Shown one piece after another: positions 44,646-61,666 of a stretch of 64,000 bases of DNA. The stretch is from positions 1 through 64,000 of the forward strand of contig JABLWZ010000008.1 in NCBI GenBank assembly GCA_013178275.1, written 5' to 3'. The DNA is from Bacillota bacterium. Lineage in GTDB: Bacteria > Bacillota > Ch66 > Ch109. The notes under the pieces are model-generated. The model saw only the letters and a program-made list of their open reading frames with translations, was not told the origin of the DNA and did no database searches. The translations under genes were made by a program, and so were the position numbers. Position 1 is the first letter of the stretch; each line of letters begins with the position of its first letter.

Positions 44646-44661
44646 TGCAATTATCATGCCT
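44646..44661 (-). promoter_or_regulatory. Sigma-54 promoter candidate for the BKACE-MFS unit
   Basis: Minus strand: AGGCAT-GATAA-TTGCA. GG and GC are at the right spacing, GGCA matches the -24 box. About 128 bp before the BKACE start codon and directly behind the terminator of the regulator operon. Confidence 0.6.
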
Positions 44662-44878: not shown

Positions 44879-46300
44879 TCACCGCACGTCCAGCATCTCG
44901 TACTTCTTCAGCTTGTACTGCAGGGTGCGGCGGCTTATCCCCAGCATCTTGGCGGTCTTCTCCCGGTGCCCGCCGGTCTGGCGCAGAGCCTCCTCCAGCA
45001 TGGTCCTCTCCACATCGACTATCACGTTCGAGAGGCACCGCTCCTCCTCCTGGAAAGCTATGTACCGGTTCCTAAAGGTCTGCTGGACCGGCAGGCTCTC
45101 GGAAAACATGTGGGAAGGCAGTTCATCAGTGGAAATGATATCCCCGCTGCCCAGGACCATCGCCCTCTCGATGATGTTCTCCAGTTCCCGCACGTTCCCC
45201 GGCCAGGGGTACTGGGTCAGGACCTTCGTGGCATTGGACGTGAGCCCCTTGACGTTCAAGCTGAACTTGTGGTTAAACTTGGCTATGAAGTGCCTGATCA
45301 GGTCGGGGATATCCTCGGACCTCTCCCGCAGCGACGGCACATGGATGCCCACCACGTACAGGCGGTAGTACAGGTCTCTCCTGAACCGGCCCGCCTCGAT
45401 CGCCTCATTCAGGTCCTCGTTAGTCGCGGCGATGACCCGGACATCGGACACGATGGTCTTCTTCCCCCCCAGCCGCTCGAATGCCTTGTCCTGCAGCACC
45501 CTCAGGAGCTTGGCCTGGGTCTGAAAACTCAGGGTCCCGATCTCGTCGAGGAAGACCGTCCCCTTGTCGGCCAGCTCAAACTTCCCCATCTTGGTCGCAA
45601 CCGCCCCGGTGAAGGCCCCCTTCTCGTGTCCGAACAGCTCGCTCTCCAGCAGGGTCTCCGGCAACACCGCGCAGTTTATCGTGATGAAAGGAAAATCCCG
45701 GCGGTCGCTCATGTTGTGCAGTTCCCGGGCGATCAGGCTCTTGCCGGTCCCGCTTTCACCCGTCAGAAGGACCGTGGTGTGGCGGTTGGCGACCTTATTC
45801 GCTACGTCGAAGACCTCCTGCATCACAACACTCTTCCCGACGATGCGGTTGCCGATGGACCCAAACCGGTTGGTCTCCACAGCGCCCCGGGCCGCCTTCA
45901 GCTCCGACCGGGGTTTGGTCTTCCTCACGGCGCTGCCCTTGATAGCCTCTCCGATGACCTTTAAAAGGTCGTCGTTCTCGAAAGGCTTTATCACATAATC
46001 GAAGGCCCCGAGCTTCATGGCCTCCACAGCGTTCTGCACCGAGGCGTAACCGCTCATGACCACCACCGGCGAGTCGGGGCAGAGGAGCCGTATCTCCCTG
46101 ATCGCCCCCAAGCCGTCCCGGCCTGACGCCCGAAGGTCCAGGAAGATAACGTCCCAGTCCCGCTTCTTTATCTCGGATACAGCGCCAGCCACGCTGCCGG
46201 CCTGGCCCAATTCGAAACCCTCGGACTTAAGAAACTCCAGGAGGAACTCCAGCGTAGAGGCGTCGTGGTCAATCAAGAGTATACTGTTCTGAGCAACCAT
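44879..46300 (-). CDS. NtrC-family sigma-54-dependent response regulator
   Basis: 473 residues. Receiver (1-120) with acidic pocket Asp11/Asp13, phospho-Asp55 in FLDLRASG, and KPFENDD; AAA+ domain (about 155-385) with Walker A GESGTGKS, the sigma-54 contact loop GAFTGA, DEIGTL, and arginine finger region RFRRDLYYRL; Fis-type HTH at the C-terminus (RQTGGHREKTAKMLGISRRTLQYKL). All elements for activation of sigma-54 RNA polymerase are intact. It overlaps the kinase-like gene's end by spacing of only 5 bp. It most likely drives the -24/-12 promoters found through this island (inference). Confidence 0.95.
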   Translation of the reverse strand: MVAQNSILLIDHDASTLEFLLEFLKSEGFELGQAGSVAGAVSEIKKRDWDVIFLDLRASGRDGLGAIREIRLLCPDSPVVVMSGYASVQNAVEAMKLGAFDYVIKPFENDDLLKVIGEAIKGSAVRKTKPRSELKAARGAVETNRFGSIGNRIVGKSVVMQEVFDVANKVANRHTTVLLTGESGTGKSLIARELHNMSDRRDFPFITINCAVLPETLLESELFGHEKGAFTGAVATKMGKFELADKGTVFLDEIGTLSFQTQAKLLRVLQDKAFERLGGKKTIVSDVRVIAATNEDLNEAIEAGRFRRDLYYRLYVVGIHVPSLRERSEDIPDLIRHFIAKFNHKFSLNVKGLTSNATKVLTQYPWPGNVRELENIIERAMVLGSGDIISTDELPSHMFSESLPVQQTFRNRYIAFQEEERCLSNVIVDVERTMLEEALRQTGGHREKTAKMLGISRRTLQYKLKKYEMLDVR

Positions 46301-46305
46301 CCAGC

Positions 46306-47799
46306 TTACCCCCTTGCCAAGGGAAAATCAAGCATCACGGTTGTTCCTTCGTTCTCCTTGCTGCGTACAACAATCCACCCACCATGCCTGATCACGATCT
46401 GCCGGGCCACCGCCAGTCCAGTTCCGGCACCGTCGACCTTGGTGGTGAAAAAAGGATCGAAAATCTTGTCCAGCAGGCTCTTCGAAATACCGCACCCGTT
46501 ATCTTTGACAACCACCCTCACCCGGTCGCCGGTCACCTGGCTGGTCACGTCAATAACCCCGGAGTGGCCCATTGCCTCGATAGAGTTGTTGAATATATTC
46601 GAAAACAGCTGGGAAAGCTTTTCGCGGTTCCCCTCTATGATCGGCTCGCTTTCATCGAGGTGAAGGTTTAAGAAAACCTTGGACTCATTGTTTAAGATCG
46701 TGGTGCAGGTGTTTTTGATGACCTCGCTCAGGCTCAGCCGGTCAAACTCCATCTCCATCGGCCGGGAGAGGTCCAGCAGGTTGTTGACCACCTGGTTGAT
46801 CTTGTCCACCTCGTCCACGATGATCTGGGCGAACTTCCTGCTGTTAGCGTCACTGGCCTCCCGCTTCTCGATCATCCGGGCAAAGCCGCGGATAGCGGCC
46901 AACGGCCCCTGGACGTCCTGTGACAGGTTGGTCGCGATCTTATTGATGACCGTCATCTTCTCCAGCTGTATCAGACGGTTCTGGAAGCTGTGCTTCCCGG
47001 TCTCATCCTGAACCAGGCCGACGACGCCAAGCAGCTCTCCCTTTTCGTCCAACCAGGGGAAGACCGTGGAGGAAAGCACCATCTCTTCCTGGTTCAGGGT
47101 GATGAACCTTATATGCCCGCCCGAGTAGGCCAGCTTCTTCTCCATCACATAGTCAATCACCCGTTTTACGTTGTCGCGCTGCTGAGGAGCCAGGCACTCT
47201 AGATAGTGGCGCCCGATGATGTTATTGGAGTCGTAGCGGAAAAGCGTCTCCGCCGCCCGGTTGAACTGGATCATGGTCCCGTCCTTGGAAACGGTATAGA
47301 TGCCGATGTCCAGGCTGTCCAGGACCTCGTTGGCGATACCCGCCGTGTTCAACAAACCGATCAGGCTCCCATAGTGCCTGGAAACCAGCTCGGCGACCGC
47401 CTTCAGGAGTTTCATCTCCCCCTCGATCGGCACCCGCTGACCCTTGAACAGCAGCAGAATGAACCCGCGGATGTTGGCGTGGCTCAGCGGGGCCAACATG
47501 CCGGACGACCCCGGATCAGCCCCGAGCAGGTCAAGCAGTCTCTTATCGAGCGCCTGGGGTCCGGTCTCCGCGGCATCCACCAGTTGATTCAAGGTCGATT
47601 GGGAAAAAGCAGCTATATCCTTCGAGTACTTGGAGGGCTTGACCGGGTGTTCGATGATAGGGTTCAGCTCGCTGTCGCAGGCCGCGATAAACCCGCTGTC
47701 AAAGGGAAAAAGCTCCTCCAGCAGGTTCCCCACATCACACTTCAGGAAGTCCCCTATTCCATGCCGCTTGGTTATATCCTGCCATATAGGGACTTTCAT
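46306..47799 (-). CDS. PAS-domain NtrB-like kinase protein lacking the phosphoacceptor His
   Basis: 497 residues, no membrane segment. An N-terminal GAF-like half (about 1-165), a PAS domain (about 170-280, NEVLDSLDIGIYTVSKDG onward), a dimerisation helix pair and a C-terminal HATPase with NIFNNSIEAMG (N-box), DNGCGIS, and TTKVDGAGTGLAVAR. In the H-box the sequence is NLSQDVQGPLAAIRG; the usual L-x-H-E-I-x-N-P-L would place His where Gln294 (codon CAG) stands. So ATP binding looks intact but autophosphorylation is doubtful. GGGGGGAGG precedes the ATG. Co-transcribed with the NtrC-type regulator. Confidence 0.88.
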   Translation of the reverse strand: MKVPIWQDITKRHGIGDFLKCDVGNLLEELFPFDSGFIAACDSELNPIIEHPVKPSKYSKDIAAFSQSTLNQLVDAAETGPQALDKRLLDLLGADPGSSGMLAPLSHANIRGFILLLFKGQRVPIEGEMKLLKAVAELVSRHYGSLIGLLNTAGIANEVLDSLDIGIYTVSKDGTMIQFNRAAETLFRYDSNNIIGRHYLECLAPQQRDNVKRVIDYVMEKKLAYSGGHIRFITLNQEEMVLSSTVFPWLDEKGELLGVVGLVQDETGKHSFQNRLIQLEKMTVINKIATNLSQDVQGPLAAIRGFARMIEKREASDANSRKFAQIIVDEVDKINQVVNNLLDLSRPMEMEFDRLSLSEVIKNTCTTILNNESKVFLNLHLDESEPIIEGNREKLSQLFSNIFNNSIEAMGHSGVIDVTSQVTGDRVRVVVKDNGCGISKSLLDKIFDPFFTTKVDGAGTGLAVARQIVIRHGGWIVVRSKENEGTTVMLDFPLARG

Positions 47800-53202: not shown

Positions 53203-53249
53203 TGGTACATCCTCCTAGCGATTAAAATTTCAGGTCAAACAACCTATCA

Positions 53250-53265
53250 AGCAAATCACGTGCCA
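53250..53265 (-). promoter_or_regulatory. Sigma-54 promoter of the thiolase gene
   Basis: Minus strand: TGGCAC-GTGAT-TTGCT, a full match to the consensus TGGCAC-N5-TTGCW, 48 bp before the start codon. Confidence 0.87.
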
Positions 53266-53332
53266 CATTAAAAAAGGTTCACCCCCGGCAACCTCATCGA
53301 ATGAAGAAAGCCAGCAAACATAGTGCCCCAAG

Positions 53333-53379
53333 GCACAAGTGCAGCTCGCCTCCGAGCTGCACTTGTGCAAACATGGTAC
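53333..53379. promoter_or_regulatory. 16-bp perfect hairpin overlapping an enhancer-like motif
   Basis: 53333-53348 and 53353-53368 are exact complements (GCACAAGTGCAGCTCG) around CCTC, a very stable stem without T-run on either strand. Its right arm runs into GTGCA-AACAT-GGTAC (53365-53379), the shared motif, 100 bp upstream of the thiolase -24/-12 element. The stem may be the 3' end of the CrtC-like transcript, an insulator, or part of the activator site. Confidence 0.55.
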
Positions 53380-53443
53380 CAAAACTGGCCGGTTGTTCTA
53401 TTAAATTCACCCGATCTTGCACACCTGGCCGGGTGTTTCCCGT

Positions 53444-54541
53444 TTACTTCTGCTGCTGGGCCGCCAGCTTCTGCCTCAGTCTCACCGCCGCGGCCAGGTC
53501 CATGTACTCGAACATGGTCCTTCCTTCCCGCTTGAGCCGGCCGATAGAGGTCTCGACGTCCATGCGGTAGTCGCCGGCGAACCGCAGGTAGCACAGCTGC
53601 TCCGCCACCAGGTTCAGGTTGCTGATCTTGACCTCTCCCTTGACCCCCGAACCCTCCAGGAACACCAGCCGGCCTTCCGACGCGTAGGTCAGCTCCTGCG
53701 CCCCGGTGATCATCTTCTCCTCGACAAATTCGATCTCCTCCGTGGAGGTTACGATGTCGTTCCCGTGCACGAATATGCACGGTTTGAAGGGCGGGTATTC
53801 GGATTCGGGGAACAGGTTGTAGACCTTGGAGTATATCAGGTTCATGTCCCCTTCCGCGATCCTTCCCCAGTACCACTTTTCGAGGGTCGCGGGGAGCGGG
53901 TGATTGCCCCAGTTGTGGTCGTGGTAGCTGTACCCCGACTCGTTGACCTCGATCACCTTCCCCTCGTTGTCGGTAACCTTGAAGGATGCCTTGACGTGTC
54001 CATTCGGGACCGCCACGATCCAGCGGTGAAAGAGGTGACCCTTCGGGGTGTCTCTCTCTATCAGCGACCCCCGCCCGATCTTCACCCCCGGGACCATGGG
54101 GGTTAGCACCACATCGGCTTTAGCCGTCTTCCCCTTGCCGTCGGGTATCTCCGCGCTGATGACAAACTCGGGCAGGCCCCCGGTCTCCCTCATGGTCAGG
54201 TGGTTCTTGTCCCCGAACCAGACGTCCAGCCGGTCCGGCGCTATCTTCACCTGGTCGGCGTTTAAGTCCAGTTCCCCGTAGAAGATGGGGACCCGTTTCT
54301 CGTCATACAGGCCCACCTTCATGGTGGCATAGTCCAGGGCGTTATAGGGTATGGTCGGGTCCGCCGCCAGTTTGGCTAGGGCCTGGGCGTATCTCAGCGC
54401 GGTCGGATTGGTGCAGCTGAACACCACATTAAAAGAATAGCCGTTGTGCAGGTCCCCGTCGAAGTACCACCACTCATAAGCCCCCGGCATCTTGTCCTTC
54501 TCCGGGTGATACAGGTTCAACGAGTAGTCAAAGCCTCCCAT
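53444..54541 (-). CDS. CrtC/AttH-like lipocalin-fold protein (copy C)
   Basis: 365 residues. AYEWWYFDGDLHNGYSF near residue 22 and SGYSYHDHNWGNHP...EKWYWGRIAEGD near 210 are the CrtC/AttH motif pair. It lacks a signal peptide and is the most diverged of the three copies. Single-gene unit with a consensus -24/-12 promoter 58 bp upstream, so it is under the same control as thiolase. GAGGGGGG lies 8 nt before the ATG. The C-terminus ends in a Gln-rich tail. Confidence 0.78.
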   Translation of the reverse strand: MGGFDYSLNLYHPEKDKMPGAYEWWYFDGDLHNGYSFNVVFSCTNPTALRYAQALAKLAADPTIPYNALDYATMKVGLYDEKRVPIFYGELDLNADQVKIAPDRLDVWFGDKNHLTMRETGGLPEFVISAEIPDGKGKTAKADVVLTPMVPGVKIGRGSLIERDTPKGHLFHRWIVAVPNGHVKASFKVTDNEGKVIEVNESGYSYHDHNWGNHPLPATLEKWYWGRIAEGDMNLIYSKVYNLFPESEYPPFKPCIFVHGNDIVTSTEEIEFVEEKMITGAQELTYASEGRLVFLEGSGVKGEVKISNLNLVAEQLCYLRFAGDYRMDVETSIGRLKREGRTMFEYMDLAAAVRLRQKLAAQQQK

Positions 54542-54598: not shown

Positions 54599-54615
54599 TG
54601 CAATTATTGTGCCAA
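54599..54615 (-). promoter_or_regulatory. Sigma-54 promoter of CrtC-like copy C
   Basis: Minus strand: TTGGCAC-AATAA-TTGCA, a full match to the consensus including the T before TGGCAC, 58 bp before the start codon. No copy of the 15-bp enhancer-like motif was found within 200 bp upstream. Confidence 0.88.
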
Positions 54616-54838: not shown

Positions 54839-56101
54839 CTATGCCTTGGCTGATTTCTTTGCTGTTTCAGGAAGGAAGAGCAGTGATAGACAGAACAGAA
54901 TGCCTATTATTCCAGCCACCCAAAACATCGATCCCACTCCCAGTTTGTCCCCCAAGTAACCCGATATCTGAGCGCCGAATACTCCTCCCAGGTCCGCGAA
55001 TACGATGCTGATTCCTAAAAGCGTGGCCATCAGCGCGGGATTCGCTCTCCCACAAACATCGGCGCTCAAGGTGTAATAAGCCCCGCTGGTGCCGAACCAG
55101 AAAACCCCCATCACACAGAGCATCGGGAAAATCATGCTTACTGGTATGAATGGAATCGCCATGACTATAATATGGGCAGGTATAACCCCAAAGAACGTGA
55201 ACCATTTCCGGCTTTTGAAACGGTCGCTCAGCCACCCACCCAGTATTGAAACGACCAGACCGGTCCATAACCAGCCGGTAGTCATAAAGATAGCATCTGT
55301 AACCGGTACTCCACGAAGCTTGACCAACATCGTGGGGAGAAAGTGCAGAAGGATGGTGAACTCGCTCATTATAAAAAACCATGAGATATATAAGACCCAC
55401 AGTTCCTTATGGGCTATGGAAGTCTTTAAAATTGTGGTCCAGGGTACATGATGTGACTGCTCTATCTTTGGGGACACCCCATATTCTTTTTCGTCCTGCA
55501 GTTCTTCTTCATGGATTCGTTTTTTATCTTCTGCGTTGGGGTCCTTCGCGAATAACAGCGCCAAAACCACGATAACTACGGCGGGTACAATAGTATAGGC
55601 ATATACCGGCTGCCATCCCCCCCATTTGCCGATCGCGAATTGTCCCCACAGCAAAGCGGTCAGAGGACCGGCCGTTGACACAATAGCCAATACGCCCATG
55701 GCCAGCCCGCGCCGTTTTGCTGGAAACCAGTCGGTTACCATGGCCATAAGCGGGGCGTGGTTGGCGGCCGCACCGAGCCCCACGAATGCCCTTAAACCTA
55801 AGAAGGAAGAGAAACTGGTGGTCAAACTCATGAGAAAGTTGGCCACCCCGACTACCGCTGTCCCCAGAAGCATAAACTTGCTGCGCCCGAACTTGTCTGC
55901 CAGGATGCCAAACGGGATATGGCCCAGCGAGTAAGTAAAAAGCATGATGCTGGCGATCGCTCCGGCGCCGGCCATGGTCATTCCCCAGTCCTTGATTAAC
56001 AGGGGCAAGGTTGGGGTAGTTAGACTGCGGTTAAAAAAAGATATCCAGTAGGCCAGTACAATAACTAACAGAACTAATATCCTCTTGGTCTTAAAATTCA
56101 T
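54839..56101 (-). CDS. MFS transporter (carboxylate type), copy 2
   Basis: 420 residues, twelve membrane segments, with GILADKFGRSKFMLLG between segments 2 and 3 and a charged loop near 200-220. Layout and N-terminus (AYWISFFNRSLTTPTLP) parallel the 42.3-kb transporter. Ribosome site GGGGAGGAG lies 7 nt before the ATG. Single-gene unit; a -24/-12 element and two enhancer-like motifs lie upstream, so it should be induced together with the catabolic genes. Two related carriers suggest uptake of two related acids, or uptake and export. Confidence 0.88.
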   Translation of the reverse strand: MNFKTKRILVLLVIVLAYWISFFNRSLTTPTLPLLIKDWGMTMAGAGAIASIMLFTYSLGHIPFGILADKFGRSKFMLLGTAVVGVANFLMSLTTSFSSFLGLRAFVGLGAAANHAPLMAMVTDWFPAKRRGLAMGVLAIVSTAGPLTALLWGQFAIGKWGGWQPVYAYTIVPAVVIVVLALLFAKDPNAEDKKRIHEEELQDEKEYGVSPKIEQSHHVPWTTILKTSIAHKELWVLYISWFFIMSEFTILLHFLPTMLVKLRGVPVTDAIFMTTGWLWTGLVVSILGGWLSDRFKSRKWFTFFGVIPAHIIVMAIPFIPVSMIFPMLCVMGVFWFGTSGAYYTLSADVCGRANPALMATLLGISIVFADLGGVFGAQISGYLGDKLGVGSMFWVAGIIGILFCLSLLFLPETAKKSAKA

Positions 56102-56214
56102 GTATGCTCCTCCCCTTTTTTACAATTTGCGCCCCTTATAGCCTCCTGCCCTCCTTTCCTCAGCTTTTACCGACCCTTCCCGAGTACATAACCCAGTTCT
56201 TTCCAGCAATAAAT

Positions 56215-56230
56215 TGCAACCTTCATGCCT
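56215..56230 (-). promoter_or_regulatory. Sigma-54 promoter candidate of the second MFS gene
   Basis: Minus strand: AGGCAT-GAAGG-TTGCA, nearly the same as the BKACE element (AGGCAT-GATAA-TTGCA). 114 bp before the start codon. Confidence 0.65.
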
Positions 56231-56328
56231 CTTTTCAAAATCTTTAAAAAACATCAACCCAACCGCTTTGAATAAGGGGAAAGGCCAAATATTCGAAGCG
56301 ATATTAGTGTATGTGTTGCACATAATAC

Positions 56329-56373
56329 GTGCATTACATGTACTCAGCGTCGAAAAAGGTGCATTTACGGTAC
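56329..56373. promoter_or_regulatory. Paired enhancer-like motifs, 30 bp apart
   Basis: GTGCA-TTACA-TGTAC (56329-56343) and GTGCA-TTTAC-GGTAC (56359-56373) on the plus strand, start to start 30 bp, about three helical turns, 100-145 bp upstream of the -24/-12 element. Typical placing for NtrC-type activator sites. Confidence 0.6.
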
Positions 56374-56397
56374 ATTTTTTCCTGGAGGAATATAAAA

Positions 56398-56426
56398 AAG
56401 GGCCGTGCTTGTAGAAGCTGGCCCTT
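56398..56426 (-). terminator. Terminator of the CaiB - FAD oxidoreductase unit
   Basis: AAGGGCC (56398-56404) pairs with GGCCCTT (56420-56426), with inner GCTT/AAGC; the minus strand continues TTTTATATT. About 100 nt after the FAD oxidoreductase stop. The rest of 56102-56523 holds only the promoter elements listed. Confidence 0.85.
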
Positions 56427-56523
56427 AATGTAGAGTTTAAGTTTTAAAAACTGACGCTCTATTACCTCGAAATAAATTTGACTGGTTGCTCAGCTGCTTA
56501 TCTGTATCAGTGTTTAAAGAACA

Positions 56524-59290: not shown

Positions 59291-59479
59291 ATAAATGCAC
59301 CCCTTTTTATTTATACTGATGCTGCTGAATCAACCTGAAAACTCATCCACAATTCAACTCTACCAAAAACCCACTGAAGAATAACAGCCCTATAGACAAC
59401 CCCTCCCCTGTTTTTAAGTGATAGCGCGGAAATCTTTAAGCTAATTAACAAACGAACTGCATGATCAAGCTGATTCAAA

Positions 59480-59495
59480 TGCAAATTTCGCGCCT
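59480..59495 (-). promoter_or_regulatory. Sigma-54 promoter candidate of the CaiB - FAD oxidoreductase unit
   Basis: Minus strand: AGGCGC-GAAAT-TTGCA. GG and GC are in place, the -12 box is perfect, the -24 box has four of six. It is 190 bp before the start codon, longer than the others. Confidence 0.5.
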
Positions 59496-59595
59496 GCTAT
59501 CCTCATCCAGGCCAGCCCTCCCGCCGGAAAAGGCTCGACCGGCACTCGCTCCGAGGGACCTCAGCCCAGCTCCCCAGACCGGCCCTAAAATACAT

Positions 59596-59641
59596 GTGCA
59601 ACTTTGGTACTTGCTGCTGTCCCCTGGTGCAATCATGGTAT
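59596..59641. promoter_or_regulatory. Paired enhancer-like motifs, 31 bp apart
   Basis: GTGCA-ACTTT-GGTAC (59596-59610) and GTGCA-ATCAT-GGTAT (59627-59641) on the plus strand, 31 bp start to start, 100-145 bp upstream of the -24/-12 element: the same geometry as at the second MFS gene. Confidence 0.6.
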
Positions 59642-59743
59642 TTATTGCGAAGAAAACTTGGCTGTCGCCAAGCCTCTGGCGAAGGTGAGAGCCGTAGTTG
59701 CACTTGCTTGCATCAGAAAGTTCCCTTATATACTTTCTGATCG

Positions 59744-61666
59744 GTAGAGTGAAGGGCTGGGGATACCAGCCCCTCCTCATCAAACCGTACGTGAGGTTTT
59801 CCCTCATACGGCTTTCCGATGTTCGTCGTCATGGACGTTCGGCTCTAACCAATTTCAACAGTCCATTTGTCTGTAAGATTCGAGCCACTTTACGGCGCAG
59901 CTTTGCCGAGTTGCGTCTCTGCGATTTCTTCGCGTAATATCGGGTTAATCGGTCGAGGATGTACCAATCCAGCTTGCCGAGTTTCCGAGTGCTGTACGGT
60001 GTCATGTAGTAGTTCCGCCATCCCCGTATCTTGGGATTGAGGAATTCCACATGATCCTTCACTGATATTACTCGGGCCGATGGCACTGCCAACCGTTCTT
60101 TCACCTCGTCGCGAATATGCTGCTCCGCTTTCGCCGTCAGCCACTGCTGGGTCGTGTAGTAAGTATGGCAACTGGTTGTTTGGGCTTTGGTCTTTCGATG
60201 GTGCATCCCCAGAAAGTCGAATCCGGCTTCTCCGGTCCACATCCCCACGAGCTTGGTCTTTTCAGGATGCAGGGTGAGTTCTAGCCGCTTCATGATGGCC
60301 TTGGTGATCTGCAAGGCGCGTTCTGCGTCCTTCTTTGTCTTGCAGACCACCACTAGATCATCAGCGTATCGGGTTAACTTCCCGATTTCCGCCCCGTTCT
60401 TTTCCCACAGTAGGTCGAAGTAATGAAGATAGATATTTGCCAGCAGCGGCGAAATTACCCCGCCCTGCGGCGTTCCGGTTACCGGTAGCCTGACCTTCCC
60501 TTCCTCCATCACGCCAGCTTGCAGCCATTTTCTAATCAGCTTCAGGATTCGCCGGTCGTTAATCCGCATTTGCACCAACTTCATCAGTTTTTCCTGGTTG
60601 ATGCTGTCAAAGTACCCCTGGATGTCGACGTCGACCACCCAATTGCCTTTGCGGTTGCAGGCCTTTCGAACCCGTTCCAGCGCTTGTTTCGCGCTTTTTC
60701 CGGGCCGGAACCCGAACGAGCAGTCCTTGAAGTCGGCCTCGAAGATTGGTTCGATAACCATCTTCACCGCCATCTGGATTACCCGGTCCCTGACTGTGGG
60801 GATGCCCAACGGGCGCTGTTTACCATCTTTCTTGGGGATGTACTTTCTGCGTACTGGTTGTGGTTGATACTTTCCTTCTTTCAGGTCCTGCTGGCAATAC
60901 AGCAAGAATTCCTGTACGCCCATCGCTTCGATGTCCGCCAGGGTCTGCCGGTCTATGCCGGCGGCTCCCTTATTGACCCGTACCTTTTCCCACGCTACCA
61001 GTAGCACGTCCATGCGATAGACCTTGTCATACAGTGCATGGAATCTGCGTCTCTGGTTTGCCTTGGAGGCATGACCTAGCTTTCCTTGGAGTTCTCGGAC
61101 TTTTTCTTTTGGTGTTGTTAGCCTTACGGCATTCACGACCCTTACCTCCTTGAAAAGCATGAACAAAGCAGAGGCCCTTCCCTCCGACTGGTTGTGTTGT
61201 CCTGCCGTTCCTTGGTACTATGGCCTCCTCCGACTCCCTCCCCGCCAAATCGCCACTTCACCGTGCTGGCTTATAGGCGTCCGTTTTACAGGTTTTCTCT
61301 CCTGTGCTGGGGTAGGGTCTCCCCAGTTCACTGCGATGTCTTTGTTACCATGCCGTTCCCTCTACGCCAGGAGGTTCTTCGGTGCTGCTTTCCCAAGTTC
61401 TTCACACCTTCCTTGGCCTTCGTCCATTTGCGCGGGACTTGGCTCCTCCTTGTTCCCCTCGCAGGGCCTTTTTGATGACGCGGCAGGATTCACTTGATGT
61501 TACGGCCTGGTAGCTTGCTCGCCCTCTCTCTGAGAGGTACTTTCGTCGATACGCTTCTACGCAAAGATTTCTCCGTACGCAGGCATCCTAGCTACGAGGC
61601 GCCTTGGTGCTTACCCCGACCGGACTTTCACCGGTTAGACATCGCGTGCTTGGCTGGGCACGCCAC
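59744..61666 (-). mobile_element. Complete class C group II intron
   Basis: About 1.92 kb on the minus strand. The 5' end is GTGGCGTGCCCAGCC at 61666, followed by GTGAAAGTCC; the RT gene is in domain IV; domain V is recognisable at about 59782-59815 (AAGCCGTATGAGG, a GAAA-like loop, CCTCACGTACGGTTT), and domain VI ends CTCTAC near 59744. The upstream exon is a terminator stem followed by TTTTTCCATTT, the class C insertion context. The 5' GTGGC deviates from the GTGYG consensus. 61137-61666 is the non-coding domain I-III part. Confidence 0.88.
59829..61136 (-). CDS. ltrA: Group II intron reverse transcriptase/maturase (class C)
   Basis: 435 residues from GTG 61136, which has AAGGAGG 8 nt upstream; the frame is open ten codons further. 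RT blocks: GIDRQTLADIEAMG, RRKYIPKKDGKQRPLGIPTVRDRV, SFGFRPGKSAKQAL, VDVDIQGYFDSIN, GTPQGGVISPLLANIYL and the catalytic YADD in TRYADDLVVVC. The maturase part (about 330-425) has the GWRNYY and RRKVARI-like segments. There is no HNH endonuclease, as expected for class C. It splices the intron and copies it into new sites. Confidence 0.96.
   Translation of the reverse strand: MNAVRLTTPKEKVRELQGKLGHASKANQRRRFHALYDKVYRMDVLLVAWEKVRVNKGAAGIDRQTLADIEAMGVQEFLLYCQQDLKEGKYQPQPVRRKYIPKKDGKQRPLGIPTVRDRVIQMAVKMVIEPIFEADFKDCSFGFRPGKSAKQALERVRKACNRKGNWVVDVDIQGYFDSINQEKLMKLVQMRINDRRILKLIRKWLQAGVMEEGKVRLPVTGTPQGGVISPLLANIYLHYFDLLWEKNGAEIGKLTRYADDLVVVCKTKKDAERALQITKAIMKRLELTLHPEKTKLVGMWTGEAGFDFLGMHHRKTKAQTTSCHTYYTTQQWLTAKAEQHIRDEVKERLAVPSARVISVKDHVEFLNPKIRGWRNYYMTPYSTRKLGKLDWYILDRLTRYYAKKSQRRNSAKLRRKVARILQTNGLLKLVRAERP

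Follow-up and report, generated by a model that had tools for sequence, protein, structure and literature searches.

In the E. coli acetoacetate system the membrane-bound kinase AtoS phosphorylates AtoC (PMC7618054), NifL of Azotobacter vinelandii controls NifA through a stoichiometric protein complex (PMC3466315), and the Caulobacter pseudokinase DivL, which has neither kinase nor phosphatase activity, binds a response regulator (PMC4211667). Receivers missing at least one of the residues DD1, DD2, D, T, and K are defined as pseudo-receivers, and how these are switched on and off has been described as an open question, with the characterized cases almost all orphans (PMC12632262). Here we describe, in a 64,000-nt window of a Bacillota bacterium contig (data from one genome), a kinase gene whose product carries Gln294 at the phosphoacceptor site, followed in the same operon by the gene of a sigma54 activator whose receiver has lost its direct Mg2+ ligand (Table 1). 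Judging from sequence, we see an even chance that this AtoSC/NtrBC-type pair has become a phosphorylation-independent, nucleotide-dependent protein-contact switch that would work like NifL-NifA.

A kinase without its phosphoacceptor His

The original prediction, made from the DNA sequence, placed Gln where the H-box (LSQDVQGPL) should carry His, and closer analysis bears this out: codon 294 is CAG, and Gln294 sits on the HisKA His column in three separate alignments. The aligned residue is His in 25/25 relatives from the phylum and in a His-bearing paralog on the same contig, and the Gln kinase is the sole one without His among the 30 best HisKA domains of the genome. Gln as a habit of the lineage is ruled out, since the other HisKA domains of the genome that we compared carry His. 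A conserved His nearby would have undone the prediction. The kinase has 10 His residues (positions 13, 51, 107, 142, 198, 229, 270, 380, 412, and 472), none of them within DHp positions 275–350, so no nearby His could take over the phosphoacceptor role.

Among HisKA domains the His is missing in 0.9% (722/76,471) (PMC12632262); such a loss is rare, yet not unheard of, and our literature search for natural Gln H-boxes returned engineered or distant cases only. Because Gln at the phospho-site abolishes labeling in Hik2 H185Q (PMC4751278), His phosphorylation of the Gln kinase is very unlikely. Degenerate proteins of receiver-GAF-PAS-kinase layout are also encoded at L042:7035-8996 and L063:5435-7465, where the phosphoacceptor position is taken by Gln (LSQELKNCL) or Asp (IADEIKNPL). 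In both cases the gene of a His-bearing GAF-PAS kinase immediately precedes them, and they look like a separate pseudokinase family.

The open reading frame of the kinase is intact, and the N, G1, F, and G2 boxes of HATPase_c are retained, as had been predicted, with Leu460Thr in G2 the sole change inside them. The protein thus departs from orthodox HisKA kinases of the NtrB/AtoS type at the H-box His and agrees with them at the HATPase_c boxes, and on its sequence it would be classed as a pseudo-histidine kinase, that is, a HisKA-HATPase protein without a function such as phospho-His. The N-terminal domain has no Pfam match; it is common only to two in-genome paralogs, and our search for it in other genomes gave no match among those searched. 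In the predicted structure (mean pLDDT 79.8, pTM 0.41) the domain folds are usable, while the arrangement of the domains is not.

A partner receiver without its metal ligand

The activator gene starts 5 bp past the kinase stop and is likewise intact. Its product has the composition of an NtrC-family sigma54 activator, with a PF00072 receiver fold, a PF00158 AAA+ domain with GAFTGA, and a PF02954 Fis helix-turn-helix (HTH). The receiver had been taken as intact on the basis of Asp55, Lys, and Ser. These residues are indeed present, but the acidic pair reads Asp11-His12, and Ser59 replaces Pro at D+4. The second residue of the pair (DD2) binds the metal directly (PMC12632262) and is Asp in 115/121 receivers compared and in 18/18 nearest relatives. 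With His12 at DD2, the domain is a pseudo-receiver by the published definition. Neither this abnormality nor the paralogous pair and fused activator described below had been seen in the earlier prediction.

In-genome relatives and the distribution of lost residues

Two in-genome relatives lie on the same contig, 20–30 kb off: a normal His/Asp pair, 20 kb beyond the Gln pair, and a one-piece activator. The latter joins the GAF-like N-domain, PAS, and a DHp domain that has kept its His to AAA+ and the Fis HTH and lacks both HATPase and receiver. In this family, then, a sensor-PAS-DHp module can be joined to AAA+ without an ATPase domain or a receiver. The N-domains of the paralog kinase and the fusion are 58% identical, versus 22–23% for either against the Gln kinase. 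Between the two kinases identity is 23% in the N-domain, 43% in PAS, and 49% in DHp.

Using columns conserved in at least 60% of relatives, we compared residue losses unique to the Gln pair with those unique to the His pair. Losses were concentrated in DHp (9 vs. 1) and the receiver (9 vs. 2), whereas PAS (3 vs. 3), CA (6 vs. 6), AAA+ (7 vs. 8), and HTH (1 vs. 0) lost similar numbers. Taken together, the phosphotransfer domains differ from the remaining domains (18 vs. 3 against 17 vs. 17; P = 0.0097, Fisher's exact test), as they did with an earlier, more distant set of relatives (19 vs. 4 against 15 vs. 24; P = 0.0013). The columns are not independent, so this statistic is suggestive and no proof.

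The concentration of erosion in DHp and the receiver, with ATPase, AAA+, and HTH kept, supports phosphorylation-independent control with the ATPase domain as a switch, both among the mechanisms first proposed for this kinase, and the retained domains point to nucleotide-gated direct contact. In such a scheme the GAF-like and PAS domains would detect a metabolite from the acyl-CoA/beta-keto-acid pathway encoded nearby, and this signal, together with ATP/ADP binding, would set the conformation of DHp and the ATPase domain. The DHp surface may then bind the pseudo-receiver activator directly and hold or release its AAA+ motor, as NifL does with NifA, and the activator would drive the sigma54 promoters of the cluster. 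With somewhat less confidence, short of an even chance, we propose that kinase and receiver form a cognate pair that lost phosphotransfer together and became a contact-based, nucleotide-gated switch parallel to NifL-NifA. The contig would then hold three states between two-component and one-component control: a converted pair, a parent-like pair left unchanged, and the one-piece activator.

Several observations weigh against this interpretation. The receiver retains Asp55, Ser83, and Lys105 as well as Tyr at K-3, and the AAA+ domain of the activator is itself changed at N315Y and P323S. No ortholog of the Gln kinase was found in 4 class genomes, 398 phylum genomes, or 80 genome-contig loci. 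At column cut-offs of 75% and 90%, the difference in losses gives P = 0.28 and 0.15; the counts are small, and the direction of loss in DHp and the receiver is unchanged.

Alternative explanations

The main rival, which we consider improbable though far from negligible, is that the Gln kinase forms a heterodimer with the neighboring His-bearing paralog, in which its ATPase domain phosphorylates the paralog's His or it adds a second sensor input, with output through the paralog's regulator or by cross-phosphorylation. DHp helix 1 differs little between the two proteins (PLAAIRGFARMIEK in the Gln kinase vs. PLASIRGFARIIEK in the paralog), CA is kept, and near-identity of the HTH recognition helices means that targets may overlap. 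There is also precedent in the heterodimerization of native ChrS and HrrS, although a truncated pseudokinase did not clearly heterodimerize (PMC9491836). The low identity of the N-domains, and to a lesser degree of PAS, argues the other way, as does the partner receiver, which is itself degenerate and has an alpha1 unlike that of the paralog regulator.

Less probable again is a decaying duplicate, in which the Gln pair has been losing function since the paralogous pair took over. The Gln pair is found in a single genome, and its branches exceed those of the paralog in length (kinase 0.89 vs. 0.60, regulator 0.49 vs. 0.38), both consistent with decay. However, the two reading frames are intact and closely spaced and retain the CA, AAA+, and HTH motifs, and decay would not single out two phosphotransfer domains. 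Simple decay also fits poorly with the CA domain of the Gln kinase, which is nearer the outgroup consensus than its counterpart in the His-bearing paralog.

We give a lower chance still to a constitutively active activator that is controlled by its expression level, with the kinase relative vestigial. Here His12 would mimic the active state in the manner of CheY D13K, in which a basic residue at DD2 gives a constitutively active, poorly phosphorylated protein (PMC4671073), and expression control of pseudo-receivers has been proposed (PMC12632262). But His differs from Lys, the kinase retains its ATPase and PAS domains, and the regulator gene follows it directly.

Residual phospho-chemistry is highly unlikely, whether the kinase acts as a phosphatase only or another kinase or acetyl phosphate acts on Asp55 with weak metal binding. 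Asp55, Ser83, and Lys105 are kept, and HisKA phosphatase activity does not need the His (PMC12632262). Yet with His12 the direct Mg2+ ligand is gone, which makes cross- or acyl-phosphate phosphorylation of Asp55 unlikely and weakens the original suggestion that another kinase or acyl phosphate acts on the activator. The H+4 position of the kinase is also Gly, not the Asn or Thr usual for HisKA phosphatase activity. An assembly or sequencing error at codon 294, which lies one base from CAC/CAT, has a very small probability, because Gln294 is accompanied by changes at further family-conserved DHp positions (G286N, A290T, E295D, and R297Q) and by the receiver changes in a separate gene.

Genomic setting and sigma54 promoters

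The same-strand neighbors of the pair encode thiolases, DUF35-type Zn-ribbon proteins, a gamma-carbonic-anhydrase-like protein, BKACE, MFS, CoA transferase III, and acyl-CoA dehydrogenases. This 39.6-kb acyl-CoA cluster contains seven intergenic sigma54 sites with at most one mismatch on the coding strand, whereas shuffles predict 0.05 (maximum 1 in 500). Two of the seven match perfectly, starting 48 and 58 bp upstream of a gene. When up to two mismatches are allowed, the whole window contains no more sites than expected by chance (21 vs. 22.1), so the evidence lies in the position of the good sites and not in their number. Since the best family models for the pair are those of the AtoS/AtoC acetoacetate system, the signal may be a beta-keto acid or an acyl-CoA.

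The genome (4.77 Mb) has a rich sigma54 repertoire, with about 42 full-length sigma54 activator domains. The product of the gene at 53444-54541 (-), which lies behind one of the perfect promoter-like sites, has 365 aa and matches neither Pfam nor NCBIfam families, and a group II intron reverse transcriptase/maturase lies within the cluster at 59829-61166 (-). Between genes of the cluster a TGCAC/GTGCA motif occurs more often than expected (19 vs. 7), at window positions 53203-53443, 56102-56523, and 59291-59828, which include a long GCACAAGTGCAGCTCG inverted repeat. The motif is possibly an enhancer or a terminator, and no activator is assignable to it.

Table 1. Features of the Gln pair, nearby sigma54 promoter-like sites, and in-genome relatives. 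Positions are those of the window unless marked as contig positions.
Feature	Position	Strand	Details
Putative pseudo-histidine kinase	46306..47799	-	497 aa; GAF-like N-domain, PAS, DHp with Gln294, HATPase_c
N-terminal sensory domain	47350..47733	-	GAF-like; alpha-beta-beta-alpha-alpha-beta-beta-alpha order
PAS domain	46990..47325	-	PAS_4, 4.6e-14
DHp/HisKA domain	46750..46977	-	H-box eroded; HisKA E 1.2e-11
Codon 294	46918..46920	-	CAG, Gln replacing phosphoacceptor His
HATPase_c (CA) domain	46315..46743	-	PF02518, 1.9e-25; N, G1, F, G2 boxes kept
Partner sigma54 activator	44879..46300	-	473 aa; pseudo-receiver, AAA+ (GAFTGA), Fis-type HTH
Codon 12	46265..46267	-	His replacing the receiver's direct Mg2+ ligand (DD2)
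Codon 59	46124..46126	-	Ser replacing the receiver's D+4 Pro
AAA+ sigma54 interaction domain	45344..45844	-	Intact
Fis-type HTH	44900..45016	-	Recognition helix near-identical to those of both paralogs
Sigma54 promoter-like site	44646..44661	-	1 mismatch; before BKACE-MFS genes
Sigma54 promoter-like site	53250..53265	-	Perfect; 48 bp before thiolase operon leading into the pair
Sigma54 promoter-like site	54599..54614	-	Perfect; 58 bp before gene 53444-54541
Sigma54 promoter-like site	56215..56230	-	1 mismatch; before MFS gene 54839-56101
His-bearing paralog kinase	contig 67801-69351		H-box SHEVRSPL; 35% identical to Gln kinase over 20-495
Paralog regulator	contig 66459-67823		54% identical to partner activator
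One-piece fusion activator	contig 73667-75853 (L031:9667-11853)		728 aa; another 5 kb past the normal pair

Comparison with known systems

By family models the pair comes closest to AtoS-AtoC, which give the best NCBIfam models for both proteins, both far below the equivalog cut-offs (AtoS 255.5 vs. 646 bits, AtoC 460.4 vs. 714 bits), and thiolase and CoA-metabolism genes lie nearby in each case. The present pair differs in the missing His and Mg2+ ligand and in an N-domain with a soluble-looking GAF-like fold. With NifL-NifA it shares the pairing of a histidine-kinase-like sensor (PAS-H-GHKL) with a sigma54 AAA+ activator, and the structure of the NifL-NifA complex (9qq6) is among the matches for both kinase and activator. 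However, NifA carries a GAF domain and no receiver, NifL contains a pair of PAS domains with FAD, the present activator is closer to AtoC/NtrC, and both NCBIfam scores fall below cut-off (NifL 86.4 vs. 242.45 bits, NifA 378.5 vs. 528.85 bits).

DivL resembles the Gln kinase in having its phosphoacceptor His replaced (by Tyr550) with the HisKA-HATPase fold kept, and its structure (4q20) was matched; DivL, however, reads phosphorylated DivK, whereas the partner here is a degenerate sigma54 activator encoded in the same operon. Finally, the activator resembles pseudo-receivers and other atypical response regulators in that DD2 is absent from its set of five active-site residues (PMC12632262), but here the receiver adjoins its own pseudokinase. 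Because the activator shares an operon with that pseudokinase, near a normal pair and a fusion that would serve as natural controls, the switching of a pseudo-receiver becomes directly testable at this locus.
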